A stretch of DNA of 64,000 nt, taken from assembly GCF_026340255.1 (NCBI RefSeq), contig NZ_JAPEPJ010000002.1, positions 310,001-374,000 of the forward strand, written 5' to 3'. This stretch comes from Streptomyces sp. NBC_01408. GTDB lineage: Bacteria; Actinomycetota; Actinomycetes; Streptomycetales; Streptomycetaceae. The position numbers were made by a program, and so were the translations under genes. The notes beneath the pieces are model-generated. The model was not told the origin of the DNA. It saw only the letters and a program-made list of their open reading frames with translations, and made no database searches. This document shows, one piece after another, positions 5,307-61,530 of the stretch; within the stretch, counting starts at the first letter, position 1; each line of letters begins with the position of its first letter.

Positions 5307-6040
5307 GGGCCGGCCGGGCGTGGGCCGCGGCGACCGCCACCACCGCCCCGCGGGCGCCCGCCGCCTGGCGGGAGAATCCGTACGACGAAGCGCTGCGCGA
5401 CGGCCGCGGGCCACTCTTCCTGCGCCGCGTGGACGGCTGGCTGCTGCCGCTCGACGTGGAACGCTGGTGCGCCGCCCCGGATGCCGCGGACCTGAGCGTG
5501 CTCGCGCGCTGCGGGGACTCCGTCCTGGACGTCGGATGCGGGCCCGGCCGGCTGGTCGCCGCCCTCGCGGCGCGGGGCCACCGGGCGCTGGGCATCGACG
5601 TGAGCCCGGAGGCGGTGGCGCGTGCCGAACGGCTGGGCGGGCTCGCCCTGTGCCGGTCGGTGTTCGACCGCCTGCCGGGAGAAGGCCGTTGGAACACGGT
5701 CCTGCTCATCGACGGCAACATAGGCATCGGCGGGGACCCCACGGCCCTGCTGAAGCGTCTGGCGGAAGTGACCTGCTCCGGCGGGAGCGTCATCGCCGAA
5801 TGCCTGGAGGTCGATGTGGACGACCGCTGCGAGGTCCGGATCGACGACGGCAGGGGCAGGACGGGCGCCCCGTTCGCCTGGGCCCGGGTCGGCGCCGCGG
5901 CGCTGTACCGGCACGCCGAAGCCGCCGGATGGGCCCGCCGGGAGCAGTGGTCGGCCGGCGGCCGGGTCTTCGTGGAGCTGGCGCGGCGGCCTCGGCCGCG
6001 GACGCCGGTCCGTGCGGTGCCGATGCCGGTGTCGACGTGA
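5303..6040 (+). CDS. Class I SAM-dependent methyltransferase
   Basis: A 245-aa protein starting at the GTG at 5303 (GTGA overlap with the preceding gene). SAM-binding motif I is SVLDVGCGPG (about 73-82), followed by the acidic strand end ALGIDVSPEAV and LLIDGNIGIGGD as the motif IV equivalent. The N-terminal WRENPYDEALRDGRGPLFLR segment resembles methyltransferases encoded with glycan operons. The target, perhaps a sugar or lipid-linked intermediate, is unknown. Coupling on both sides indicates obligate co-expression with the glycosyltransferases. Confidence 0.85.
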   Translation: MRAGRAWAAATATTAPRAPAAWRENPYDEALRDGRGPLFLRRVDGWLLPLDVERWCAAPDAADLSVLARCGDSVLDVGCGPGRLVAALAARGHRALGIDVSPEAVARAERLGGLALCRSVFDRLPGEGRWNTVLLIDGNIGIGGDPTALLKRLAEVTCSGGSVIAECLEVDVDDRCEVRIDDGRGRTGAPFAWARVGAAALYRHAEAAGWARREQWSAGGRVFVELARRPRPRTPVRAVPMPVST

Positions 6041-48440: not shown

Positions 48441-48628
48441 GCAGCCCCCTTCCCGGCGTGCCCGATCGCGGCCCCGGCACCCTTCCCCTCTCTGTCACCA
48501 CCTACGGCACATCGTTGCGTGTCGATTTGTCGCGCTCTGGGTTATCGAGCTGCGACCACGAAAGAGAAAGCTCCTGAAATGGCGACTTGGACAGTCACAT
48601 CGACCGCGCGCCGAAATGCGAGCGCGCC

Positions 48629-50140
48629 ATGGTAGCGGCGCGGATCACGGTCAACGGGAAAGAAACACCGATTTCACCGGCTGCACCCCACACCACAGCG
48701 CTGGACTTTCTGCGCGAGCGTGGCCTCACCGGCACCAAGGAGGGCTGCGCCGAAGGTGAATGCGGCGCCTGTTCGGTCCTGGTGGCCCGTCCCGGGGTGA
48801 ACAAGCCCACCGACTGGGTGGCGGTCAACGCCTGCCTGGTCCCGGTCGCGGCGCTCGACGGTCAGGAGGTCATCACCTCCGAAGGTCTCGCCACCGCCGG
48901 CGAGTCCGGCAGACCGGCCGCCTTGCACCCTGTGCAGGAGGAGATGGCCGTCCGCGGCGGTTCCCAATGCGGTTACTGCACACCGGGATTCATCTGCAGC
49001 ATGGCCTCCGAATACTACCGGCCCGACCGCTGCGCGCACCCGGACACGGCCGACGACACCGGTGCCACCACCGGCTCCGGCTCCGGCACCGGCTCCGGCT
49101 CCGGCTCCGGCTCCGAGCACGGTCCGAACGGTTTCGACCTGCACGCGCTCAGCGGAAACCTGTGCCGCTGCACCGGCTATCGCCCGATTCGCGATGCCGC
49201 GTTCGCCGTCGGTACGCCCACCGAGAACGACCCCATGGCGCAGCGTCGCGAGCAGTCCCCGCCCGAACCGGTCGCCACCGAATACACCCGGGACGGCAGC
49301 GCGTTCCTGCGGCCGAGCACCCTGGCCGACGCGCTGCGGCTACTGCGCGAGCGGCCCGACGCGGTGGTCGTCGCCGGAAGCACCGACTGGGGTGTGGAGG
49401 TGAACATCCGTTCCCGCCGGGCGAATTGCGTGGTCGCGGTCGACCGTCTCCCCGAACTGCGGGAACTGCGAGTCGAATCCGACCACATCGAGATCGGGGC
49501 GGCGCAGACGCTCACGGAGATCGAACGCCGGCTCGACGGCAGCGTCCCGCTACTGGCCGAGCTGTTCCCGCAGTTCGCGTCCCGGCTCATCCGCAACAGT
49601 GCGACCCTCGGCGGCAATCTGGGTACCGGGTCCCCCATCGGTGACAGCCCGCCGGTACTGCTCGCGCTGGAGGCATCGGTGGTACTCGCCGACGCCGACG
49701 GTGAGCGCGAGGTCCCCCTCTCCGACTACTTCACCGGCTACCGGCAGAGCGTGCGCCGTCCCGGCGAACTGATCCGCGCAGTGCGCATCCCCCTGCCGCT
49801 GTCGCCGGTCGCGGCCTTCCACAAGATCGCCAAACGGCGGTTCGACGACATCTCCAGCGTGGCGGTCGCCTTCGCGCTCGACATCGAGGACGGGATCGTG
49901 CGCAAGGCCCGCATCGGGCTGGGCGGTGTGGCCGCCACCCCGATCCGCGCCCTCGACACCGAGGCGGCCCTGGAGGGCGAGCCGTGGGCGGCGGAGACCG
50001 TCGAGGCCGCGGCCCGGGTGCTGCGGGCCCAGGGCACGCCGATGGACGACCACCGCGCCAGCGCCGGATACCGCTCCGCGATGCTCGGCCAGAGCCTGCT
50101 GAAGCTGTACGCGCAAACCACCGAGGCGGGGTCGTCATGA
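48629..50140 (+). CDS. xdhA: Xanthine-dehydrogenase-type small subunit ([2Fe-2S] + FAD)
   Basis: A 503-aa protein from the ATG at 48629 (a TTG 42 nt upstream is the alternative). Plant-type cluster ligands are Cys40, Cys45, Cys48 and Cys69 (CAEGECGAC). The second cluster has Cys114 and Cys117 (QCGYCTPGF) and Cys179/Cys181 (NLCRCTGY). Between these pairs lies a Gly-Ser tract (149-162), an unusual insertion. FAD-binding blocks follow from about 220 (LADALRLLRERPDAVVVAGS, then NSATLGGNLGTGSPIGDSPP). It passes electrons from the molybdenum subunit to FAD and NAD+. The ATGA overlap with xdhB couples them. Confidence 0.92.
   Translation: MVAARITVNGKETPISPAAPHTTALDFLRERGLTGTKEGCAEGECGACSVLVARPGVNKPTDWVAVNACLVPVAALDGQEVITSEGLATAGESGRPAALHPVQEEMAVRGGSQCGYCTPGFICSMASEYYRPDRCAHPDTADDTGATTGSGSGTGSGSGSGSEHGPNGFDLHALSGNLCRCTGYRPIRDAAFAVGTPTENDPMAQRREQSPPEPVATEYTRDGSAFLRPSTLADALRLLRERPDAVVVAGSTDWGVEVNIRSRRANCVVAVDRLPELRELRVESDHIEIGAAQTLTEIERRLDGSVPLLAELFPQFASRLIRNSATLGGNLGTGSPIGDSPPVLLALEASVVLADADGEREVPLSDYFTGYRQSVRRPGELIRAVRIPLPLSPVAAFHKIAKRRFDDISSVAVAFALDIEDGIVRKARIGLGGVAATPIRALDTEAALEGEPWAAETVEAAARVLRAQGTPMDDHRASAGYRSAMLGQSLLKLYAQTTEAGSS
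49073..49114 (+). repeat. In-frame hexanucleotide repeat (GGCTCC)x7 in xdhA
   Basis: Seven GGCTCC units, one of them changed to GGCACC, encode a Gly-Ser tract inside the second [2Fe-2S] domain, between the CGYC pair and the CRC pair. Unit-number change keeps the frame and alters loop length only. It is preceded by a degenerate TADDTGATT stretch. Confidence 0.9.
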
Positions 50141-52539
50141 GCCATTTGTCCGAGCGCCCCGAAATGCCTGTCGTCGGCGTTTCGATGCCACACGAGAGCG
50201 CCAACCTGCACGTCACCGGCACCGCGCTCTACACCGACGACCTGGTCCACCGCACCAAGGACGTACTGCACGCCTACCCGGTCCAGGTCATGAAGGCCCA
50301 CGGCAGGATCACCGCGCTGCGCACCGAGCCCGCGCTCGCCGTACCCGGTGTGGTCCGCGTGCTGACCGGCGGCGACGTGCCCGGCGTCAACGACGCCGGG
50401 ATGAAGCACGACGAACCGCTGTTCCCCGACGAGGTCATGTTCCACGGCCACGCCGTCGCCTGGGTGCTCGCCGAGACCCTGGAGGCGGGCCGGCTCGGTG
50501 CGGCGGCCGTCGAGGTGGAACTCGACGAAAAGCCCTCCGTGATCACGCTGCGGGAGGCGATCGCGGCCGAGAGCTTTCACGGCGCCCGGCCCCTGATGCT
50601 GACCGGCGACGTCGATGCCGGCTTCGAGGACTCCGCGCACGTGTTCACCGGCGAGTTCCAGTTCTCCGATCAGGAACACTTCTATCTGGAGACGCACGCG
50701 GCGCTGGCCCACGTCGACGAGGGCGGGCAGATGTTCGTCCAGAGCAGCACCCAGCATCCCTCCGAGACGCAGGAAATCGTCGCGCACGTGCTCGGCCTGC
50801 ACAGCCACGAGGTGACCGTGCAGTGCCTGCGGATGGGTGGCGGCTTCGGCGGCAAGGAGATGCAGCCCCACGGGTTCGCGGCCGTCGCCGCGCTCGGCGC
50901 CAGGCTGACCGGTCGGCCGGTCCGGGTGCGGCTCAACCGGACCCAGGACCTGACCATGTCCGGCAAGCGCCACGGGTTCCACGCCACGTGGAAGATCGGC
51001 TTCGACGCCGAGGGCCGTATCCAGGCCCTGGACGCCACCTTGACCGCGGACGGCGGCTGGAGCCTGGACCTGTCCGAGCCCGTGGTGGCCCGCGCGCTGT
51101 GCCACATCGACAACACCTACTGGATTCCCCACGCGCGCATCGCCGGTCGCATCGCCAAGACCAACAAGGTCTCCAACACCGCCTTCCGCGGCTTCGGCGG
51201 ACCGCAGGGCATGCTGGTGATCGAGGACATCATGGGCCGGTGCGCACCGCTGCTCGGCCTGGATCCGACGGAGCTGCGCGAACGCAACTTCTACCGGCAG
51301 GGCCAATCGACGCCGTACGGACAGCCGGTCCTCCACCCCGAACGCATCTCCACCGTCTGGCAGCAGGTTCAGGACGACGCCGGCATCGCCGGTCGCAAGC
51401 GCGATATCGCGGCCTTCAACGCCGCACACCCGCACACCAAGCGGGCACTCGCGATCACCGGGCTCAAGTTCGGCATCTCGTTCAACCTCACCGCCTTCAA
51501 CCAGGCCGGTGCGCTGGTGCTGATCTACAAGGACGGTTCCGTCCTGATCAACCACGGCGGCACCGAGATGGGGCAGGGCCTGCACACCAAGATGCTGCAG
51601 GTGGCCGCGACCACGCTGGGCATTGCGCTGCACAAGGTGCGGCTGGCCCCGACGCGTACCGACAAGGTGCCCAACACCTCCGCCACCGCCGCCAGTGCCG
51701 GGGCGGACCTCAACGGTGCGGCGGTGAAGAACGCCTGCGAGCAGTTGCGCGGGCGGCTGCTGCAGGTGGCCGGCACCCAGCTGGGTGCGAACGCCTCGGA
51801 CGTGCGCATCGTCCAGGGCGTCGCGCGCGTCCTCGGCAACGACAAGGAACTGGCCTGGGACGACCTGGTGCGCACCGCGTACTTCCAGCGGGTCCAATTG
51901 TCGGCGGCCGGTTTCTACCGGACCGAGGGCCTGCACTGGGACGCGAAGGCGTTCCAGGGCTCGCCGTTCAAGTACTTCTCCTACGGCGCCGCCGCGACCG
52001 AGGTGGAGGTGGACGGCTTCACGGGCGCGTACCGGATCCGGCGGGTGGACATCGTGCACGACGTCGGCGACAGCCTCTCCCCGATGATCGACATCGGTCA
52101 GGTCGAGGGCGGTTTCGTGCAGGGCGCGGGCTGGCTGACGCTTGAGGACATGCGGTGGGACGCCGGTGACGGGCCGAACCGCGGCCGGCTGCTGACCCAG
52201 GCCGCGAGCACCTACAAGCTGCCGAGCTTCTCGGAGATGCCCGAGGAGTTCAACGTCAGGCTGCTGGAGAACGCCACTGAGGAGGGCGCGGTCTACGGGT
52301 CCAAGGCGGTGGGTGAGCCTCCGCTGATGCTGGCCTTCTCGGTGCGAGAAGCGCTGCGGCAGGCGGCCGGGGAGTTCGGGCCCGCCGGAGTCAGCGTGGA
52401 GCTCGCCTCCCCCGCGACACCGGAGGCGGTGTACTGGGCGATCGAAGCAGCCCGCAAGGGCGGCGTGCGGCACGACGGTCAGGCTGCCCCCGACGGCAGC
52501 GAAGTCCCCGCCGACGCAGGCGCTTTGAGCAATGCCTGA
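50137..52539 (+). CDS. xdhB: Xanthine-dehydrogenase-type molybdenum subunit
   Basis: An 800-aa protein. Moco/substrate blocks are GGGFGGKE (234-241), AFRGFGGPQGMLVIE, HGGTEMGQGLHTKMLQ and SATAASAGADLNGAAVKNAC, and the catalytic Glu727 lies in GSKAVGEPPLML. RGFGGPQ carries the Phe/Gly loop contacting pyranopterin. The family hydroxylates purines or related heterocycles using water. The length is typical of the separate large subunit. Whether the substrate is xanthine or hypoxanthine, or another heterocycle, cannot be read from sequence alone. Confidence 0.93.
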   Translation: MSHLSERPEMPVVGVSMPHESANLHVTGTALYTDDLVHRTKDVLHAYPVQVMKAHGRITALRTEPALAVPGVVRVLTGGDVPGVNDAGMKHDEPLFPDEVMFHGHAVAWVLAETLEAGRLGAAAVEVELDEKPSVITLREAIAAESFHGARPLMLTGDVDAGFEDSAHVFTGEFQFSDQEHFYLETHAALAHVDEGGQMFVQSSTQHPSETQEIVAHVLGLHSHEVTVQCLRMGGGFGGKEMQPHGFAAVAALGARLTGRPVRVRLNRTQDLTMSGKRHGFHATWKIGFDAEGRIQALDATLTADGGWSLDLSEPVVARALCHIDNTYWIPHARIAGRIAKTNKVSNTAFRGFGGPQGMLVIEDIMGRCAPLLGLDPTELRERNFYRQGQSTPYGQPVLHPERISTVWQQVQDDAGIAGRKRDIAAFNAAHPHTKRALAITGLKFGISFNLTAFNQAGALVLIYKDGSVLINHGGTEMGQGLHTKMLQVAATTLGIALHKVRLAPTRTDKVPNTSATAASAGADLNGAAVKNACEQLRGRLLQVAGTQLGANASDVRIVQGVARVLGNDKELAWDDLVRTAYFQRVQLSAAGFYRTEGLHWDAKAFQGSPFKYFSYGAAATEVEVDGFTGAYRIRRVDIVHDVGDSLSPMIDIGQVEGGFVQGAGWLTLEDMRWDAGDGPNRGRLLTQAASTYKLPSFSEMPEEFNVRLLENATEEGAVYGSKAVGEPPLMLAFSVREALRQAAGEFGPAGVSVELASPATPEAVYWAIEAARKGGVRHDGQAAPDGSEVPADAGALSNA

Positions 52540-53419
52540 CATGAGCTGGGTGGCCGCGGTCGCGCGGTTGCGGGCACGCCGGGAACCCGGCGTGCTCGTG
52601 ACCGTCGCGACCGTGCGCGGCCACGCGCCCCGCCGGGCCGGTGCCAAACTCGTCGTGGGACGGACCGAGACCTGGGGTTCGATCGGCGGCGGCAACATCG
52701 AGGCCGTCGCCATCGATCGGGCGCGCGAGCTGAACGGCACGGCCGGTCCGGAGCGGGAGCCCGAGCCGGAGCTGATGGAATTCGCCCTCAACGACAAGGT
52801 CACCGGCCGGCACGGTGTGCAGTGCTGCGGCGGAGCCGTCACCGTACTGCTCGAACCGCTGCCGGTGGTCCAGGCGGTGGCGGTCTTCGGCGTCGGGCAC
52901 GTCGGTCTGGAACTGGCACGCATCCTGGCCCGCCACCACCTCGATCTGCACCTGATCGACACCCGCCCCGACATGCTCACCGACGAACGGCTCGGCGTGC
53001 TCGCGGATGCGGTGGCGCAGATCCACGTGCACCACACCCCGCTGCTTCCGGAGGAAGTGCTCAGCGAGCTGCCACCCGGCACCCACGTCCTGATCATGAC
53101 CCACGATCACGCCGAGGACGCCGCACTGTGCGACGCCGCCCTGCGCACCACCGGTCTCGGCTCGATCGGACTGATCGGCTCGTCCGCCAAATGGGCGAGG
53201 TTCCGGCAACGCCTGGCCACCGAGGGCGGCCACGACGCCGCCACCATCGACCGGATCAAGACCCCGATCGGAATCGCCGAGATCACCGGCAAGGAACCCG
53301 CCACGATCGCGGTGAGCGTCGCGGCAGACCTGCTCCGGACCTTCGAACAGGACCGCCACCGGGCAGTGCCGAGCCCGGTTGCCGCGGTGCCGAACGCTCC
53401 GGTCGCCGGCAGCGCGTAG
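52532..53419 (+). CDS. xdhC: XdhC family molybdenum-cofactor maturation protein
   Basis: A 295-aa protein starting 8 nt inside xdhB. The N-terminal XdhC domain has PGVLVTVATVRGHAPRRAGA and VVGRTETWGSIGGGNIEAVA, then VQCCGGAVTVLLE. The C-terminal Rossmann domain has VAVFGVGHVGLELARILA and HVLIMTHDHAEDAALCDAAL, then SIGLIGSSAKWARF. XdhC binds Moco, promotes its sulfuration and inserts it into the large subunit. The order XdhA-XdhB-XdhC is a standard operon. Confidence 0.93.
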   Translation: MPDMSWVAAVARLRARREPGVLVTVATVRGHAPRRAGAKLVVGRTETWGSIGGGNIEAVAIDRARELNGTAGPEREPEPELMEFALNDKVTGRHGVQCCGGAVTVLLEPLPVVQAVAVFGVGHVGLELARILARHHLDLHLIDTRPDMLTDERLGVLADAVAQIHVHHTPLLPEEVLSELPPGTHVLIMTHDHAEDAALCDAALRTTGLGSIGLIGSSAKWARFRQRLATEGGHDAATIDRIKTPIGIAEITGKEPATIAVSVAADLLRTFEQDRHRAVPSPVAAVPNAPVAGSA

Positions 53420-54379: not shown

Positions 54380-55096
54380 ATGCGCGTACTGATCGTGGAG
54401 GACGAGCCCTACCTGGCCGAAGCCGTCCGTGACGGTCTGCGGCTGGAGGCGATCGCCGCCGACATCGCCGGCGACGGCGACGCCGCCCTGGAACTGCTCG
54501 GCGTCAACTCCTACGACCTCGCGGTCCTCGACCGCGACATCCCCGGCCCCTCCGGCGACGAGGTCGCCCGGCGCATCGTCGCCTCCGGCAGCGGCATCCC
54601 GATCCTCATGCTCACCGCTGCCGACCGGATCGACGACAAGGCTTCCGGGTTCGGGCTCGGCGCCGACGACTACCTCACCAAACCGTTCGAGCTGCGGGAG
54701 CTCGTCCTGCGGCTGAGGGCGCTCGACCGCAGGCGCGCGTACGCCCGGCCCCCGGTCCGCGAGATCGCGGGCCTGCGGCTCGACCCCTTCCGCCGGGAGG
54801 TCTTCCGCTTCGGACGCTACGTCGCGCTCACCCGCAAACAGTTCGCCGTGCTGGAAGTCCTCGTCGCCGCCGAGGGCGGGGTCGTCAGCGCCGAAGAGCT
54901 GCTGGAACGGGCCTGGGACGAGAACACCGACCCCCTCACCAACGCCGTGCGCATCACCGTCTCCGCACTGCGCAAACGGCTCGGCGAACCATGGATCATC
55001 GCCACGGTGCCCGGCGTCGGCTACCGGATCGACGCCGGTACGGACACCACCGCCCCCGGCGGGGACACCACCGGCCCCGGCCGTACGCATGCATAG
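54380..55096 (+). CDS. OmpR-type response regulator (VanR-like)
   Basis: A 238-aa protein starting at the ATG at 54380 (MRVLIVEDEPYLAEAVRDGL). The phosphoacceptor is Asp51 (LAVLDRDIPGPSGD), with TKPFELREL for the Lys. The winged helix carries LTRKQFAVLEVLVAAEGGVV, with NAVRITVSALRKRL for DNA contact and VPGVGYRI at the end. It closely resembles Streptomyces regulators that pair with small HAMP-type kinases. Overlapping kinase and repeats upstream suggest autoregulation. Confidence 0.92.
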   Translation: MRVLIVEDEPYLAEAVRDGLRLEAIAADIAGDGDAALELLGVNSYDLAVLDRDIPGPSGDEVARRIVASGSGIPILMLTAADRIDDKASGFGLGADDYLTKPFELRELVLRLRALDRRRAYARPPVREIAGLRLDPFRREVFRFGRYVALTRKQFAVLEVLVAAEGGVVSAEELLERAWDENTDPLTNAVRITVSALRKRLGEPWIIATVPGVGYRIDAGTDTTAPGGDTTGPGRTHA

Positions 55097-56168
55097 ACGC
55101 CGCGGGCTCAGCGCCCGACTGAAACTCACCCTCAGCTACGCCGGGTTCCTCGCCGTCGCCGGCGCTCTCCTGCTGGCCGTGGTGTGGGTGTTCCTGCTGC
55201 GCTACGTACCCGACACGCCCAAGGGCCTTCTCGGGATTTCGCCCAACCGCTACCTCCTTGTGCGCACCTTCGCCCCCGCCGCGGCCGTGGCGATGGTCTT
55301 CCTGCTCGTGTTCGGCCTCGCCGGGGGATGGATCCTCGCCGGCCGGATGCTCGCACCACTCACACAGATCACGGATGCGGCACGGATGGCCGGGAACGGG
55401 TCGCTGTCCCACCGGATCCGCATGAAGGGCCGCCAGGACGAATTCCGGGAACTCTCCGACACGTTCGACTCGATGCTCGAACAACTCGAGTCCCACGTCG
55501 CCGAGCAGCAGAGGTTCGCCGCGAACGCCTCCCACGAACTGCGCACCCCGCTGGCCATCTCGCGGACGCTCCTCGACGTCGCCCGCAAGGACCCCACACG
55601 GGACATGGGCGAACTCATCGAACGCCTGCACGCCGTCAATACGCGGGCGATCGACCTCACCGAGGCCCTCCTGCTGCTCAGCCGCGGCGACCGCGGAAAC
55701 TTGCGCCCCGAGAGCGTCGACCTCTCCCTCGTCGCCGAAGAAGCCGCCGAAACCCTGCTGCCCCTCGCCGAACAGCGCCGGATCACGCTCGACGTCACCG
55801 GCGGGGCCGCCCGGACCAGCGGCTCCGCGGAGCTCCTGCTGCGGATGGTGACGAACCTCGTCCAGAACGCCATCGTCCACAACCTCCCCGCCGGCGGCAC
55901 CGTGACGGTCCACACCGAGGCGCACGGCGACACGAGCGTGCTGCGGGTCGAGAACACGGGCCCTCGGCTCCCACCGGAACTGGTACCGACCCTCACCGAA
56001 CCCTTCCAGCGCGGAACGGAACGCGTACGCACCGACGAGCACGCCGGCGCCGGCCTCGGCCTGGCCATCGTGCACAGCATCGTCCGCGCCCACGACGGGA
56101 CCCTCGACCTCGTCCCCCGCCCCGCCGGCGGTCTCCTCGTCACGGTCCGGCTTCCCGGCACGCCGTAG
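55089..56168 (+). CDS. Sensor histidine kinase
   Basis: A 359-aa protein overlapping the regulator gene by 8 nt. TM1 is at about 14-37 and TM2 at about 62-86, with a short 24-residue external loop (RYVPDTPKGLLGISPNRYLL). HAMP then carries LAPLTQITDAARMAGNGSLS. The phospho-His is His149 (NASHELRTPLAISR). The N-box is MVTNLVQNAIVHN and the G region is GAGLGLAIVHSIVRAHDG. The short sensor loop suggests sensing of a ligand at or in the membrane. Confidence 0.92.
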   Translation: MHRRRGLSARLKLTLSYAGFLAVAGALLLAVVWVFLLRYVPDTPKGLLGISPNRYLLVRTFAPAAAVAMVFLLVFGLAGGWILAGRMLAPLTQITDAARMAGNGSLSHRIRMKGRQDEFRELSDTFDSMLEQLESHVAEQQRFAANASHELRTPLAISRTLLDVARKDPTRDMGELIERLHAVNTRAIDLTEALLLLSRGDRGNLRPESVDLSLVAEEAAETLLPLAEQRRITLDVTGGAARTSGSAELLLRMVTNLVQNAIVHNLPAGGTVTVHTEAHGDTSVLRVENTGPRLPPELVPTLTEPFQRGTERVRTDEHAGAGLGLAIVHSIVRAHDGTLDLVPRPAGGLLVTVRLPGTP

Positions 56169-56224
56169 GCATCGTCCCCGGGCGGTGCCCAGCCGCGCCG
56201 CGGTGCCCTTGGAGGTTGTTGTCG

Positions 56225-57388
56225 CTACTGGCTGATGGTTGCCGGTGGCGGTGTCCAGCGGCTTTTGGGCGGAATGGTGCTGCTGACTCCGAAGTCGTTC
56301 TTGAGCTGCTCGGGGATGGCGTAGTGCATGACGCGGCCGCGGGTGAGGGCAGACAGTTCGAAAATGCTGGTCAGGTGTCCGAGCCGGTCCAGGGCCCAGG
56401 CCGCCAGGGGTGAGCTGTCCTCGATGGACTCCAGCAGTCCCAGCAGGGTGGGGGCGGCCTTGACGACGGTGTCCCAGGTGGTGCGCGGGACTTGCAGCCA
56501 GTCGGCGCAGGTGTCGCCGATCAGGTAGCGGATCAGAGCGGAGACGATCGGGTCGAAGAGGGTGCCGGGCACGACTTCCTCGTAGAGGTCGATGAGCTGG
56601 CGGGTGAGCTGGGCGCCTTCGTCGCTGGGGCCCATGTGTCGGGTCATGTACAGGTCGGAGAACTCGCGGGCTTCCTGCAAGTCCTCGGGGGCGTGGTCCT
56701 GGTCGATGCCGAGGATGGCGCCGACCACCCTCCAGGCGTAGTAGTAGGACTCGGCGCCTTCGGTGCTCATGTGGATGCCAAGGCGGTGCAGGGCGTCGAG
56801 GACCTGGATGGAGAACATCATCTGCCCGCCCATCATGTCCTCCTGACAGATCGGCGTGCCCAGGGCGGCGGTGTCCCAGCGGTCCTCGCGCTTGAGGTGG
56901 TGGCGGATGGAGGCGTGCAGCAGCCGCACTTTCTGGGCGGCGGGGATGAAGCGGCTGCCGGCTTCGAACGCGTCCGGCTGCATGAGGTAGACGGTGAACT
57001 GGCCCGTCTCGGCCATCCGCTTGGAGGGATACTTCAGCGAGTGGGTGGCCGACAGCAGCTTGGCCACGTGCGGCAGGACGTAGCAGGCGGGCATCGAGGC
57101 GAACGACAGCGCGGTGGAGATGTGCACGTTGTTGTCGATGAAGAACAGCCGGGCCTTCTCCATCTCACCCCAGTCCACCCAGGCCGGCGGCGTGCTGGTC
57201 TCGTTGAGGTACTCGCGGGCTACCTCCGGCAGCCCCTCGGGAATGTCCTGCCCGACGGTGGAGACGTAGCGCATGAGAGCGTTGAACTTGCCGACCTCTC
57301 CGCGCTCGAACAATGTCGCCACGGTCGCGTCGGCGAGTTCGTCCCCTGAGGTGCGCAGAGCGTCCATGGACGCTTGGGTATAGGTCAT
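56225..57388 (-). CDS. Oxygenase MpaB/latex-clearing-protein (DUF2236)-like protein
   Basis: A 387-aa helical protein, ATG at 57388 with a GGAGCAG ribosome site. The key region is SKRMAETGQF (R124, E127, T128), followed by FIPAAQKVRLLHASIRHHL, where His158-x3-Arg162-His163 reproduces the HxxxRH heme-proximal motif I recall from rubber oxygenase Lcp. The RxxKT motif of Lcp reads RMAET here. No Tat or Sec signal is present, so unlike secreted Lcp it should be cytoplasmic. Lcp cleaves polyisoprene, and fungal MpaB cleaves a farnesyl side chain. The polyprenyl synthetase gene upstream fits an isoprenoid substrate. Last gene of the operon. Confidence 0.83.
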   Translation of the reverse strand: MTYTQASMDALRTSGDELADATVATLFERGEVGKFNALMRYVSTVGQDIPEGLPEVAREYLNETSTPPAWVDWGEMEKARLFFIDNNVHISTALSFASMPACYVLPHVAKLLSATHSLKYPSKRMAETGQFTVYLMQPDAFEAGSRFIPAAQKVRLLHASIRHHLKREDRWDTAALGTPICQEDMMGGQMMFSIQVLDALHRLGIHMSTEGAESYYYAWRVVGAILGIDQDHAPEDLQEAREFSDLYMTRHMGPSDEGAQLTRQLIDLYEEVVPGTLFDPIVSALIRYLIGDTCADWLQVPRTTWDTVVKAAPTLLGLLESIEDSSPLAAWALDRLGHLTSIFELSALTRGRVMHYAIPEQLKNDFGVSSTIPPKSRWTPPPATISQ

Positions 57389-57424
57389 CGTGCTGCTCCG
57401 GTGGGGTGGCGGTGGTGGTGGCGG

Positions 57425-58477
57425 TCAGTGGGTGCGGGTGGCTGAGGACGTCGCCAAGTCCGCCAGTGCGCTGCGTGCTTCGGTGGTCAGGTCGGCGTCG
57501 GCCAGGGCGTCGTGTGCTTCACGCAGCCGGGCGGTGATCATGTCTTCGACGAGGGCGACGGCCCCGGTACGGTGGGCGATCTCCCGGACCCGTTCCACCT
57601 GTTGCTCGCTGAGGTCCGTCTGCCCGAGCAGGTGGTGCAGCTCGGCGTGTTCCGCCTCGGTGGCGGATGTGAGCGCATGGGCCATCAGAGCGGTGGGCCG
57701 GTTCCCGGCCAGGTCATCGGCCGGGTCCTTGCCGGTCTGCTCAGGATCGCCGAACAGACCCAGCAGGTCATCGCGCAGCTGGAATGCCTCGCCCAGCGGC
57801 AGGCCGTAGTGGCTGTACGCCTGAAGCAGCCGCGGTGGGGCGCCGGCGAGCAGGCCGCCGATCTGCAAAGGGTGTTCGACGGTGTACTTGGCGGTCTTGT
57901 AACGGATCACCTTCACCGATACGTCCGGGTCCGGCTCGGCTCCGGTACGCAACACCTCCAGGCACTCACCGGCCACCAGTTCGCGGGCCAGAACCGCCCA
58001 CAGGGGCCGGGCCCTGTTCAGGAAGGCGCCGGGCAGGCCAGAGGTCGTGAACAGCTGCCCGGCCATGGACATCAGCAGATCACCCACCAGCATGGCCAGG
58101 GCCCGGGCGCCGGCCTTCGGCCGCGCGTGATCGGTGAGTACCTCACGCAGCGCGATGTGCCCGGTGGGCCGGCCGTGCCGGGTACGGCTGTGGTCGATCA
58201 GGTCGTCGTGCACGACGGCGGCCGCATGGACCAGCTCGATCGCGCTGGCGGCGCGTACCAGGGCCTCGCTGTCGGGCTGGCCGACTCCGCGCCAGCCCCA
58301 GTAGCAAAAGGCCGCCCTGAGCCGCTTGCCATGCCTGGTCGCGGCATGAAGTTGCTCTGCGACCGGCGCAAGACAGGCGTCGATGTCCGCCAGCGCCTCT
58401 GCTTCCGTGGTAACGAATTCGCTGAGGACCTGGTCGATGCGCTTCTTCAGTAAGGCCTGCTCTTCCCGTTCACTCAC
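57425..58477 (-). CDS. Trans-isoprenyl diphosphate synthase (polyprenyl synthetase)
   Basis: A 350-aa protein. The GTG at 58477 (VSEREEQALLKKRIDQVL) is chosen because longer starts add Arg-rich frame overlap. GKRLR (50-54), the first Asp-rich motif DDLID (91-95, in VVHDDLIDHSRTRHG), KTAKYTVEHPLQIG (194-207) and the second motif QLRDDLLGLFGD (233-244) are all intact. It joins IPP to allylic diphosphates; the chain length may be C15-C25, but I cannot fix it. The upstream gene overlaps it by 8 nt and the downstream MpaB-like gene follows by 36 nt. It is not beside other terpene genes. Confidence 0.92.
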   Translation of the reverse strand: MSEREEQALLKKRIDQVLSEFVTTEAEALADIDACLAPVAEQLHAATRHGKRLRAAFCYWGWRGVGQPDSEALVRAASAIELVHAAAVVHDDLIDHSRTRHGRPTGHIALREVLTDHARPKAGARALAMLVGDLLMSMAGQLFTTSGLPGAFLNRARPLWAVLARELVAGECLEVLRTGAEPDPDVSVKVIRYKTAKYTVEHPLQIGGLLAGAPPRLLQAYSHYGLPLGEAFQLRDDLLGLFGDPEQTGKDPADDLAGNRPTALMAHALTSATEAEHAELHHLLGQTDLSEQQVERVREIAHRTGAVALVEDMITARLREAHDALADADLTTEARSALADLATSSATRTH

Positions 58478-58754
58478 CGCCGCTTCCCGCCTTGGTGCGG
58501 GCGGTGACGGTGCGGGCCAGTACCTCCAGGTGAGCCGGCGGCGGGGCCGCATGCCGGTCGAGGAGCAAGCGGCCGCGCGCCTTGGTCTCCTCCTGGCCGT
58601 CAGCCAGAAGGTCGCCGAGATCGGCGCGGCGCAGCAGGCCGCTGACACCGCCCACCGCGCTGCTCAGCCCGCTGACCGCCAGATCGGCAAGGCCGGCGAC
58701 CAGTGCCACCGCATCCTCGGTCAGCGTCGGCTCGCGGCCGTCATGGTGTGTCAC
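58470..58754 (-). CDS. Small unknown protein in isoprenoid operon
   Basis: A 94-aa protein; the GTG at 58754 has GGAG 7 nt upstream. After an acidic lead (VTHHDGREPTLTEDAVALVA), residues 14-50 form amphipathic/hydrophobic helices (VALVAGLADLAVSGLSSAVG, then GVSGLLRRADLGDLLADG), and the C-terminus is Arg/Ala-rich. Its stop overlaps the polyprenyl synthetase start by 8 nt, so it is first in a three-gene operon. I know no family. It may tether the enzymes to the membrane or carry a hydrophobic intermediate; both are guesses. Confidence 0.6.
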   Translation of the reverse strand: MTHHDGREPTLTEDAVALVAGLADLAVSGLSSAVGGVSGLLRRADLGDLLADGQEETKARGRLLLDRHAAPPPAHLEVLARTVTARTKAGSGGE

Positions 58755-59095
58755 AGCATGTCTCCTGCACGGCAAGGCCCGCCCCGGCTCCGGCCGGTTG
58801 GCGCGGAGCAGCGCGTAGCGGCTTTCGGCGCAACGCGGTTCGAGTCTGACCACCGAAACCAGCCCGGGCAGCCCTTATGCACCATCGAGTGATCTTCTTC
58901 AAAGGTCCCGACATGCAATTGGCGATCGCTGTTACGGACAAGAGCCTTGGGAAAGCCGCCGCGTCGGACCGGCGTCGGGGGTGCGCGGAGACACGGTCGT
59001 TGAATCTGCGATTGTCACGGTTCCGCTACTGCCGCACCTTGTCGCCCGACTGCCCATACGGTGACCGGATTCGCACCCGTCTCCTGGGAGTCTCC
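58755..59095. other. Divergent promoter region, 341 bp
   Basis: This lies between the leftward isoprenoid operon and the rightward DUF4352 gene. A stretch at about 58875-58930 is AT-richer and may hold both promoters. The plus frame through it is Arg/Leu-rich with no ribosome site, so I do not call it coding. Confidence 0.45.
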
Positions 59096-59701
59096 GTGTC
59101 TCAGCAGTTCCCGCCGCCCGGCCAGCAGCCTCCGCCCGGATACGGGTATCCGCCCCCGCCGCCCGCACCGCAGAAGTCCAGCGCAGGAAAGATCGTCGGC
59201 TTCTCCTGCCTCGGCGTGGTCGGCCTGGTCGTCGTCCTCGGTGTGGCCGGTGCGCTCCTCAGCGGCAGCAGCGACGACGGCACGGCGAAGCCACCGGCCG
59301 CCCGGGCCACGCCGTCGGTCTCTGAGAAGGCGCCGGAGGCCGGGCAGCCGTCCGCCGCGCCCGAGAAGAAGGCGCCGGCGGTCGCAGTGTCGGCGAAGAA
59401 AACGGCGTTCAAGCCGAGCATCATCGCGCAGGGCAGCGACTACACGAGCGTGTCGGTGACGATCACCAACAACTCGAAGAAGCCCATCTCCGTGAACCCG
59501 CTGTACTTCGCGATCACCGACACGTCCAGCACCAAGCACGCGGCGGAACTCGCCGCAGACGAGGGCCAGATCGACACGGTGGACCTCGCGCCGGGGGAGA
59601 ACGTCACCGGGACGATCACCGGCAAGGGCAAGTGGACGGCGAAGACGGTGACGTACACCGATGGACTGCTCGGGGATCCGGTCCGGGCCGACGTGTCCTG
59701 A
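59096..59701 (+). CDS. Membrane-anchored DUF4352 protein
   Basis: A 201-aa protein from the GTG at 59096 with GGGAG upstream. The Pro/Tyr/Gln-rich N-terminus (FPPPGQQPPPGYGYPPPPPA) precedes one helix (IVGFSCLGVVGLVVVLGVAG), then an Ala/Pro linker and a C-terminal immunoglobulin-like domain: YTSVSVTITNNSKKPISVNP, VDLAPGENVTGTITGKGKW. This matches the DUF4352 (Telomeric-repeat-binding-like) fold that faces outside. The cytoplasmic PPPG tail is a common actinobacterial pattern that may bind other proteins. Function unknown. Confidence 0.82.
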   Translation: MSQQFPPPGQQPPPGYGYPPPPPAPQKSSAGKIVGFSCLGVVGLVVVLGVAGALLSGSSDDGTAKPPAARATPSVSEKAPEAGQPSAAPEKKAPAVAVSAKKTAFKPSIIAQGSDYTSVSVTITNNSKKPISVNPLYFAITDTSSTKHAAELAADEGQIDTVDLAPGENVTGTITGKGKWTAKTVTYTDGLLGDPVRADVS

Positions 59702-59743: not shown

Positions 59744-60406
59744 TCAGGAGTTGCGCGGGACCACCAGGCCCGATTCGTAGGCGAGGACGACGAGCTGGGC
59801 GCGGTCGCGGGCGTGGAGCTTGGTCATGGCCCGGTTGATGTGGGTTTTCGCGGTCAGCGGGCTGATCACCATCTGGCCCGCGATCTCGTCGTTGGACAGG
59901 CCTTGCGCGACCAGGACGACGGCCTCGCGTTCGCGGCTGGTCAGCTCCTCCAGCCCCGCGCCGGTGGAGGTGGGGAGCGGCTGGGTCACGTACCGGTTGA
60001 TCAGCTTGCGGGTGATCGACGGTGCCAGCAGGGCGTCGCCGCGCGCGGCGACGCGTAGGGCGTGCAGGAAGTCCTCCGGCACGATGTCCTTGACGAGGAA
60101 TCCGGCCGCGCCGGCGCGCAGCGCGTTGAAGACGTATTCGTCCAGGCCGTAGTTGGTCAGGATGACGACGTGGACCCCGGCCAGGGCCGGGTCCGCGGCG
60201 ATGCGCCGGGTCGTCTCGATGCCGTCGAGGACCGGCATCTGGATGTCGATGAGTGCGATGTCGGGCAGGTGTTCCCTGGCGAGCGCGAGGCCTTCGCTGC
60301 CGTTGGCGGCCTCGGCAACGACCTCGATGTCGTCTTCGAGGTCGAGGAGAGCGCGGAAACCGCTGCGGATGAGCGGCTGGTCGTCGACGAGCAGGACACG
60401 GATCAC
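59744..60406 (-). CDS. NarL/FixJ-type response regulator
   Basis: A 220-aa protein. Receiver: VLLVDDQPLIRSGFRALLDL with Asp54 (IALIDIQMPVLDG), Lys in FLVKDIVPEDF. The LuxR helix-turn-helix at about 155-210 carries LTSREREAVVLVAQGLSNDE and MVISPLTAKTHINRAMTKLH. It overlaps the kinase gene by 4 nt (kinase first). Such pairs in Streptomyces regulate development, stress or antibiotic genes. The target is unknown. Confidence 0.93.
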   Translation of the reverse strand: MIRVLLVDDQPLIRSGFRALLDLEDDIEVVAEAANGSEGLALAREHLPDIALIDIQMPVLDGIETTRRIAADPALAGVHVVILTNYGLDEYVFNALRAGAAGFLVKDIVPEDFLHALRVAARGDALLAPSITRKLINRYVTQPLPTSTGAGLEELTSREREAVVLVAQGLSNDEIAGQMVISPLTAKTHINRAMTKLHARDRAQLVVLAYESGLVVPRNS

Positions 60407-61530
60407 GATGCTCGCTCCAGCGGGAGTTCGGCCTGGACGGTGAAGCCGCCCTCGCTGCGCGGCGCTGCTCGCAGTTGACCTCCGAGGGCGGTGACGCGTT
60501 CGCGCATCCCCAGGAGACCGATACCGGGCTCCGGCGCGCTGTCCACAGTGGCCTTGCCGTCGTCGTCGATGCGGATCGCGAGGGCGTCCGGCCGGTAGTC
60601 GATGCGGACCGAGGCCTTGCCGGCGTCCGCGTGACGGGCGATGTTGGTCAGCGATTCCTGAACGACCCGGTAGGCGGTCCTGCCCACTGCGGCCGGCACG
60701 TCGTGCCGCTGTCCCTCGATCGTCAGCGTCGCCTCCAGGCCGCTCTTGCCGGCCCGCTCGACGAGTTCGGGGACGTGGTCGAGCCCGCGCGGTGGGGACT
60801 TGTCGTCGTCGCGCAGCGCCTCCAGGGTCGCCCTCAGGTCGCGGGACGCCTCACGGCCCGCCTCCCGGATCGCCAGCAGCGCCTCCGGTACTTGTTCGCC
60901 GCGCTTGCGGGCCACATGGACGGCAACCTCGGACTGCACCTTGATGACCGAGATCTGGTGGGTGAGCGAATCGTGCAGCTCCCGCGCGATGTGCAGCCGC
61001 TCCTCGTCGGCGCGGCGCCGAGCGGTCTCCTCACGGGTGCGCTCGGCTTCATCGGCCCGCCGCTCTGCCTGCCGCAGCGCCTCACCGGCGGCGCCGGCTG
61101 CGATCAGCCAGGCGATCTCCAGGGCGCCTCGGGCCTGCGCGAACGCCTCCCCCGTGTCATGCAGGCCCGAGACAAGGGCTGCGAGAGGGAGAGCGGCCAG
61201 CACGGCCACGCTCACCACGACCGTGATGACGCGGTGTCCCGCCCGCATGGCCGCGTACACCGCGAACAGGTACGCGACGGCAGCCACGTCGAAACCCACC
61301 GCCTGGTAGCCCACCGCGCACAGCCCGGTGACGGCCAGCACGGGAACCGGAGCGCGTCGGCCGGCGGCCAGCGCCAGACCTCCGGCCGCCAGCAGCACGT
61401 AGCCGAGCAGGTCGAGGTTCGTGGCGGAGTGCTGCCCCGACACCCCGGTGACCAGCAGCGCCGCCGCCACGCCGACGGCGATCACCCAGTCCCGCACACC
61501 AGCCGGGACCTCGAACCGTCCTTTGCCCAT
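60403..61530 (-). CDS. Sensor histidine kinase (HisKA_3/NarX-like)
   Basis: A 375-aa protein. The N-terminal half has about five to six helices (WVIAVGVAAALLVTGVSG, then LLGYVLLAAGGLALAAGR, VLAVTGLCAVGYQAVG and ITVVVSVAVLAALPLAALVSG). Phospho-His is in RELHDSLTHQISVIKVQSEV, a HisKA_3 hallmark. The ATPase has VVQESLTNIARHADAGKASV and GIGLLGMRERVTALGGQLRA. No large external sensor is present, so membrane state or a small molecule in the bilayer is likely. It is the first gene of the pair. Confidence 0.92.
   Translation of the reverse strand: MGKGRFEVPAGVRDWVIAVGVAAALLVTGVSGQHSATNLDLLGYVLLAAGGLALAAGRRAPVPVLAVTGLCAVGYQAVGFDVAAVAYLFAVYAAMRAGHRVITVVVSVAVLAALPLAALVSGLHDTGEAFAQARGALEIAWLIAAGAAGEALRQAERRADEAERTREETARRRADEERLHIARELHDSLTHQISVIKVQSEVAVHVARKRGEQVPEALLAIREAGREASRDLRATLEALRDDDKSPPRGLDHVPELVERAGKSGLEATLTIEGQRHDVPAAVGRTAYRVVQESLTNIARHADAGKASVRIDYRPDALAIRIDDDGKATVDSAPEPGIGLLGMRERVTALGGQLRAAPRSEGGFTVQAELPLERAS

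Follow-up and report, generated by a model that had tools for sequence, protein, structure and literature searches.

What does a relative of the rubber oxygenases do when its gene lies directly behind that of a prenyl diphosphate synthase? This question is raised by a locus in Streptomyces sp. NBC_01408, within a stretch of 64,000 nucleotides (assembly GCF_026340255.1, contig NZ_JAPEPJ010000002.1, positions 310,001 to 374,000; referred to here as the window and numbered from its first letter). At 56225–58754 on the minus strand of the window, which has a guanine–cytosine content of 70.8%, three consecutive genes encode a small protein (SM), a trans-prenyl diphosphate synthase (PPS) and a protein of the DUF2236 type (MPAB). 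Their coordinates agree to the base with those of a preliminary description of this DNA, which was also exact in giving an 8-nucleotide overlap of SM and PPS (58470–58477) and a 36-nucleotide gap between PPS and MPAB (57389–57424). Comparison with related genomes shows that the three genes form one obligate unit that is inherited as a whole, is preceded by a conserved element of its own and has no other gene consistently linked to it. This unit is compact, about 2.7 kb long, and moves horizontally as a cassette. It is proposed, with a probability of roughly 45% and on the strength of motifs and homology, that SM and PPS would make a linear prenyl chain that is then cleaved by the haem enzyme MPAB. 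The features of the locus are as follows.

SM: 58470..58754, minus strand; 94 amino acids, GTG start at 58754, helical; overlaps the PPS gene by 8 nucleotides
PPS: 57425..58477, minus strand; 350 amino acids, GTG start at 58477; trans-prenyl diphosphate synthase (PF00348) with the motifs DDLID and DDLLG
MPAB: 56225..57388, minus strand; 387 amino acids, ATG start at 57388; DUF2236 / MPAB_Lcp_cat haem oxygenase by homology, without an export signal
Conserved upstream element: 58875..58895, minus strand; consensus tGaTCACtCGATsGTGAgTTc, with its core in the window at 58880–58892
−10-like hexamer: 58843..58848, minus strand; CAGACT in the window, assigned from column counts
Cassette extent: 56192..58949, no strand; the ends, on both sides, of the roughly 92% DNA identity to the closest relatives

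The three genes are inherited together

A scan of public genome contigs for MPAB confirmed 182 relatives, the best 80 of which were kept and all belong to Streptomyces, except for one from Actinacidiphila. When these 80 are taken together with three plasmid loci, all three genes are present at 81 of the 83 loci at the first threshold, and one of the two exceptions (L038) has a weak SM at a laxer threshold. Locus L041 was considered as a case of the oxygenase alone and rejected, as the same genome has both SM and PPS on a different contig, at its end; here the oxygenase is adjoined by a transposase-like gene (of the IS110 type by eye), and we take the locus to be an insertion or an assembly break.

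The same association is seen in 150 genomes drawn from the genus of S. coeruleorubidus (G001, from locus L066), where the screens for MPAB, PPS and SM list the same genome handles, so that the three draws are taken as the same 150 genomes. MPAB was found in 49 of them, at 61–89% identity. The PPS of the trio (E<=1e-75, with at most 13 candidates scored per genome) was found in 48, every one of which is among the 49, and the MPAB genome outside this count (G037) has PPS matches in two pieces only. SM was present in all 49, and as one partial relic in a further genome (G146). Within the thresholds used, no genome had PPS alone and none had a full-length MPAB alone. With all 49 places fetched, the order SM-PPS-MPAB on one strand was seen in 48, three of which have one gene in pieces (PPS in G037 and G124, MPAB in G109); in the 49th (G117), the start of the oxygenase is 243 bases away from the end of its contig, with PPS and SM side by side on a different one. 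An arrangement that recurs in 48 of 49 oxygenase-bearing genomes exceeds chance, and the conserved pairing in other genomes on which the preliminary description had staked its reading held very strongly. That description had listed the first gene as a small unknown protein, which is correct in that it has no family, but this underrated SM, which is the obligate third member of the trio.

Incomplete copies were also found. Genome G056 holds a fragment of the oxygenase only, its last 83 residues, with no SM or PPS in 12 kb, and orphan matches to SM (a second copy in G083, a partial one in G146; L231 5258–5539, L232 about 5492–5581) have neither PPS nor MPAB in the 11–12 kb fetched around each. 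We read the orphan matches and the fragment as relics, and the SM-like relics of L231 and L232 suggest that whole cassettes have been lost.

No further gene consistently accompanies the trio. In a clustering of genes called by a home-made gene caller up to 8 kb around 102 loci, some of them cut by contig ends, the PPS family appeared at 99 loci, MPAB at 91 and SM, which the caller often overlooked, at just 55. The next families are two open frames antisense to the trio, at 10 and 6 loci, and the next one that is not antisense is found at 5 at most. None of terpene cyclase, phosphatase, transporter or regulator was consistently linked to the trio at these loci.

The proteins have also diverged together, with correlations of 0.89 for SM–PPS, 0.78 for PPS–MPAB and 0.80 for SM–MPAB across 113 loci, as compared with permutation maxima of 0.22–0.32. 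At the same 113 loci, the median ratio of nonsynonymous to synonymous substitution (dN/dS), computed from equal-length pairs only, is 0.33 for SM, 0.26 for PPS and 0.17 for MPAB. In wider draws, MPAB at 70% identity or more was found in 20 of 394 genomes of the class, where the next best match has 40%, and at E<=1e-80 in 6 of 396 genomes of the phylum, all six of which were already in the earlier draws.

A conserved element precedes the trio

Upstream of SM, mostly 101–120 bases before the gene, lies an element with the consensus given above. In upstream regions 200 bases or more in length, it outscores the best of 98 shuffled regions in 86 of 98 cases, under a model trained on the same regions that it scores. 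A hexamer 26 bases downstream of the element, in which the second A, the fifth C and the sixth T are each kept in about 90%, resembles a −10 box, and no −35 box accompanies it. From this we infer that the element and hexamer may have the layout expected of an activator-dependent promoter. In the main-clade consensus, the element has a dyad symmetry of 14/20, reached by 0.6% of shuffles, which is absent from the window's own copy (6/20). There is no sigma-70 promoter pair in 56000–59000 and no Rfam match in 56000–59300.

Twelve genomes chosen for having the element each contain exactly one copy at one mismatch or less, on the contig of the trio. Co-regulated genes forming a wider regulon were looked for in the same 12 genomes and none were found, the other matches carrying two mismatches. 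One identical 17-mer, two mismatches from the element, recurs in all 12 and is presumably a LexA box. In some relatives, the element overlaps a GTTC-N16-GGGTAT pattern (by eye), which we take to be SigB-like and which is not general.

The trio moves as a cassette

The DNA identity between the window and its closest relatives, L083 (a 1.56-Mb Streptomyces plasmid) and L001, is about 92% over the cassette extent, which comprises the trio and its promoter, and the 88–89% identity to L002–L005 is likewise limited to this region; the exceptions outside the trio are matches of 65% in L003 and 76% in L005 to two-component genes located elsewhere. Since DNA identity stops at the trio and promoter, it is this stretch of about 2.7 kb that moves, as a cassette. 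L002 and L004 have flanking DNA in common with each other, so the copies do not all represent independent insertions. On 35 long contigs, which were hand-listed from earlier outputs and include copies in related strains that are not independent, 16 copies lie less than 1 Mb from a contig end as compared with 8.3 expected (binomial P 0.004). Of the 20 plasmid records listed, 5 have a copy that is nearly complete and at least 76% identical. No conserved mobilising enzyme was seen beside the trio.

By eye, L004 has a short palindrome-like stretch, CCTGT-N5-ACAGG in type, close to the upstream end of the cassette, and L001–L003 and L005 have less perfect forms of it.

The prenyl synthase and the small protein

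PPS matches PF00348 (E 1.1e-43) and contains both DDLID (residues 91–95) and QLRDD, and was rightly described as an intact trans-prenyl synthase. In alignments of its relatives, whose 115–116 rows include a few repeats of one genome and 113 distinct oxygenases, every one of 116 rows keeps the Asp residues of DDxID and RDDLxG, and at least 95% keep GKRLR. All 116 rows have Ala-Ala at positions −5 and −4 before the DDxxD motif. A large side chain at these positions halts chain growth at C15, and PPS, in which the small Ala-Ala removes this usual stop, is likely to make a product of at least C20.

The closest models and structures are those of the GFPPS_Mycobact synthases (NF042416, to which PPS scores 223 bits against a cut-off of 600; PDB 8f8f) and of a geranylgeranyl diphosphate (GGPP) synthase (3lk5), presumably from C. 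glutamicum. Where PPS has Ala-Ala, these have Trp-Ala (8f8f) and Cys-Ala (3lk5), and a host paralogue has Ser-Leu. The nearest other host paralogue, which is in G005 and has 38% identity, reaches 404 bits against NF042416. By eye, a metF-like gene is close to it, and we take this setting to resemble that of idsA2. A role as encapsulin cargo was considered for PPS and rejected, as its score to the family-2 encapsulin cargo model NF041169 is 211 bits against a cut-off of 450, and NF042416 scores higher.

The SM gene overlaps that of PPS in 111 of 115 loci, with start codons picked nearest the expected one, which suggests that the two may be translationally coupled. The window protein has no Pfam family at E<=1, and the 52 aligned members have no credible one (best E 0.13). 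The predicted structure consists of three helices, one moderately hydrophobic helix being present in the protein, with no confident packing alone (predicted local distance difference test 73, predicted template modelling score 0.30). In the two-subunit synthases HexA/HexB and HepS/HepT, a small non-catalytic subunit is described as aiding the catalytic one (PMC7839719), and by analogy SM could plausibly be a partner of PPS, as HexA is for HexB, or else a membrane adaptor. SM differs from HexA and HepS in being just 92–94 residues or so across relatives and in having no Pfam match, a comparison made with HexA through Pfam only and not directly. Public records name SM 'polyprenyl synthetase', though no such domain was found in it; the name has likely been mis-transferred.

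The oxygenase

MPAB belongs to the DUF2236 superfamily and is not filed here as an Lcp. It matches MPAB_Lcp_cat (PF09995, E 1.2e-17, 65.1 bits against a cut-off of 23), aligns co-linearly with the rubber oxygenase LcpK30 (5o1l) over residues 16–359 (E 2.2e-29), and its profile matches that of four Lcp-like proteins with 100% probability. The HxxxRH motif reported earlier is HASIRH, beginning at residue 158, and the RxxKT motif of Lcp reads RMAET at 124, with Glu for Lys as stated. Residues R124, T128, R155, H158 and R162, which correspond to Arg164, Thr168, Arg195, His198 and Arg202 of Lcp, are invariant in 116 of 116 rows; the equivalent of Trp211, in the Lcp-specific helix, is kept in at least 99%, and those of Asp56 and Asp60 are kept as well. 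In Lcp, His198 is the proximal haem ligand, Arg164Ala is described as inactive and Thr168Ala as keeping 2% of activity (PMC5522427, PMC6311187).

As the Lcp alignment starts at residue 16 of MPAB, there is no room for a signal peptide, and with a highest 19-residue hydropathy of 1.46 the protein has no strongly hydrophobic helix; the export signal was judged from this alignment and hydropathy. An N-terminal twin-arginine-like stretch is present in four Lcp-like proteins from other loci. With the residues of its haem pocket kept, and with neither export signal nor strongly hydrophobic helix, MPAB would fit the picture of a cytoplasmic haem oxygenase, in agreement with the location first proposed.

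The nearest described systems are Lcp and the MpaB family. MPAB shares its Pfam domain, proximal His and the other residues listed above with LcpK30 (PDB 5O1L/5O1M), and differs from it in having no export signal, no distal Lys167, mostly Val for the channel Glu148, and a linked prenyl synthase. Fungal MpaB and the bacterial MpaB-family proteins (Nro1; Purwani et al. 2024, as cited in PMC12724181) are of the same Pfam family. Fungal MpaB, Lcp and Nro1 are described as cleaving prenyl or polymer C=C bonds, and for the bacterial members cleavage of such bonds in prenyl or polymer chains has been reported together with a b-type haem that is reported or, as in Nro1, suggested (PMC12724181). Unlike Nro1, which is described as membrane-bound, and MpaB, which is bound to the endoplasmic reticulum according to Pfam, MPAB has no strongly hydrophobic helix, and unlike either it belongs to a cassette of three genes, the other two coding for a prenyl synthase of its own and a small protein. 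MPAB may work like an Lcp/MpaB oxygenase.

Proposed pathway and alternatives

In the proposed pathway, PPS, judged by its motifs, would extend the chain to an all-trans, linear prenyl diphosphate with at least 20 carbons, with SM probably acting as its non-catalytic partner. In a second step, suggested by homology and the haem residues, MPAB would act as a cytoplasmic b-haem enzyme that uses O2 on a C=C bond, either of the prenyl chain itself or of a prenol derived via host phosphatases, to give a shortened aldehyde or ketone (an 'apo-isoprenoid'). A wider reading can be offered more tentatively, namely that of a three-gene bacterial apo-isoprenoid pathway in which the C20 or longer chain from SM and PPS would be turned by MPAB into a signalling or volatile aldehyde or ketone, and which, together with an activator-type promoter of its own, would have spread via the chromosome arms and plasmids of Streptomyces in a cassette of 2.7 kb. 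The interpretation given in the preliminary description, which also suggested a make-then-cleave route, is partly supported; the mobility of the cassette, the conserved upstream element and the loss of Glu148 were not seen in it.

Several observations weigh against the making and cleaving of a chain by this trio. At 22 loci with distant DUF2236 relatives (about 26–40% identity), searches with three prenyl synthases found an adjacent one at none. The trio brings along no phosphatase or dehydrogenase that would account for what becomes of the diphosphate and the aldehyde. SM has no homology to known small subunits of prenyl synthases in Pfam family searches. In MPAB, the position of Lys167 is Glu in 109, Asn in 4 and Ala in 3 of 116 rows, and that of Glu148 is Val in 107, Ile in 4, Gly in 2, Met in 2 and Leu in 1; with both replaced, the chemistry could differ from that of Lcp, in which Lys167 caps the haem, Glu148 is the proposed base, and Glu148Gln and Glu148His are reported to keep 5% and 2% of activity (PMC5522427). 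These losses do not by themselves exclude cleavage, since Lys167Ala and Glu148Ala are each described as retaining about 20% of activity with unchanged products (PMC5522427). The Lys-to-Glu change noted earlier is correct but by itself no strong oddity, as the lysine is given as conserved in just 59% of 495 Lcp-like sequences (PMC5522427). With the distal lysine gone, as in Lcp Lys167Ala, whose haem is described as five-coordinate and open (PMC5522427), MPAB is predicted to be an always-open five-coordinate haem enzyme without an export signal.

The main rival has MPAB acting on a later host product: PPS would feed extra GGPP or longer chains to a host acceptor (a quinone, carotenoid or meroterpenoid), and MPAB would cleave the side chain afterwards, as fungal MpaB does. 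This is doubtful, though it deserves to be taken seriously, as fungal MpaB is described as cleaving a prenylated aromatic and not a free prenyl diphosphate (PMC12724181), and a trio without phosphatase or cyclase leaves room for other host enzymes; set against it are the lack of any conserved acceptor gene within up to 8 kb at the 102 loci and the many contexts of the cassette, chromosomal and plasmid, in all of which an acceptor would be needed. It is unlikely that MPAB does not cleave a C=C bond at all and instead hydroxylates or epoxidises, or uses its haem to sense O2 or redox state, so as to adjust or modify the prenyl product. The replacement of both the Glu148 base and the Lys167 cap speaks for such a role, as does the globin fold of Lcp, which is described as resembling globin-coupled sensors (PMC5522427), but the complete conservation of the Arg164, Thr168, His198, Arg195 and Arg202 equivalents and the near-complete conservation of that of Trp211 speak against it, and the family members described in the literature consulted here are C=C-cleaving oxygenases.

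Two further explanations are far less probable. The homology of MPAB to Lcp could point to a catabolic or rubber-degradation module, which is very improbable given the absence of an export signal and of two Lcp active-site residues, and an obligate partner that is an anabolic synthase under purifying selection. Least credible of all is a merely historical linkage, in which three unrelated genes hitch-hike on a mobile cassette: the cassette is indeed mobile, but the genes overlap, share a single upstream element, show near-perfect three-way presence and absence, and have co-diverged across a deep divergence (the oxygenase down to 61% identity), and genomes with only one or two intact members, which would favour such hitch-hiking, were not found among the 150. 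Production of a prenyl chain by SM and PPS and its cleavage by MPAB is the reading favoured here.

Distant relatives and surrounding genes

At three of the 22 distant loci, a prenyl synthase lies 3.4–5.9 kb away (L159 and L229 at 3.4 kb, L149 at 5.9 kb). L159 and L229 are Streptomyces plasmids in which an oxygenase of about 29% identity lies 3.4 kb from a different prenyl synthase and is adjoined by an oxidoreductase dependent on flavin adenine dinucleotide (FAD), which is HpnE-like, below the cut-off, in L159; this setting was not seen in L228 and L230. In L140, a DUF2236 homologue of 32% identity lies downstream of dxr, rseP and ispG (genes assigned by eye), and close relatives of this homologue are rare (4/150 genomes of the family).

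In the window, a scan of ten flanking proteins (50–64 kb) identified parts of a xanthine dehydrogenase, a VanZ-like protein, two two-component systems, a DUF4352 protein and a short-chain dehydrogenase, with one protein unmatched; no terpene cyclase was among them, as the preliminary description had noted for the adjacent genes. The xanthine-dehydrogenase-like operon, with XdhC, occupies 48587–53419, and about 3.2 kb of it (from 49125) has about 75% DNA identity to Deinococcus plasmids. Two unrelated two-component systems flank the trio (54380–56168 and 59744–61530; OmpR-type, NarL-type), and the 76% DNA match of the former in L005, about 6 kb from the trio of that locus, is probably due to chance.

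Implications

Text searches of the literature, whose coverage excluded most subscription journals, returned no description of the trio. What is new is the combination of the genes and their genetic isolation, the enzyme families themselves being known. To our knowledge, the substrate is known for few DUF2236/MpaB-family proteins; here the genome points to a partner enzyme that produces the likely class of substrate, which opens the function of MPAB to a direct test with a single 2.7-kb construct. Should cleavage be shown, the rubber-oxygenase family would have a role in bacterial anabolism, acting on a prenyl chain that has only just been made, and roughly one in three of the genomes sampled from the genus (49/150) would hold an unrecognised small isoprenoid. 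SM, for its part, would be a prenyl-synthase partner of a new kind.

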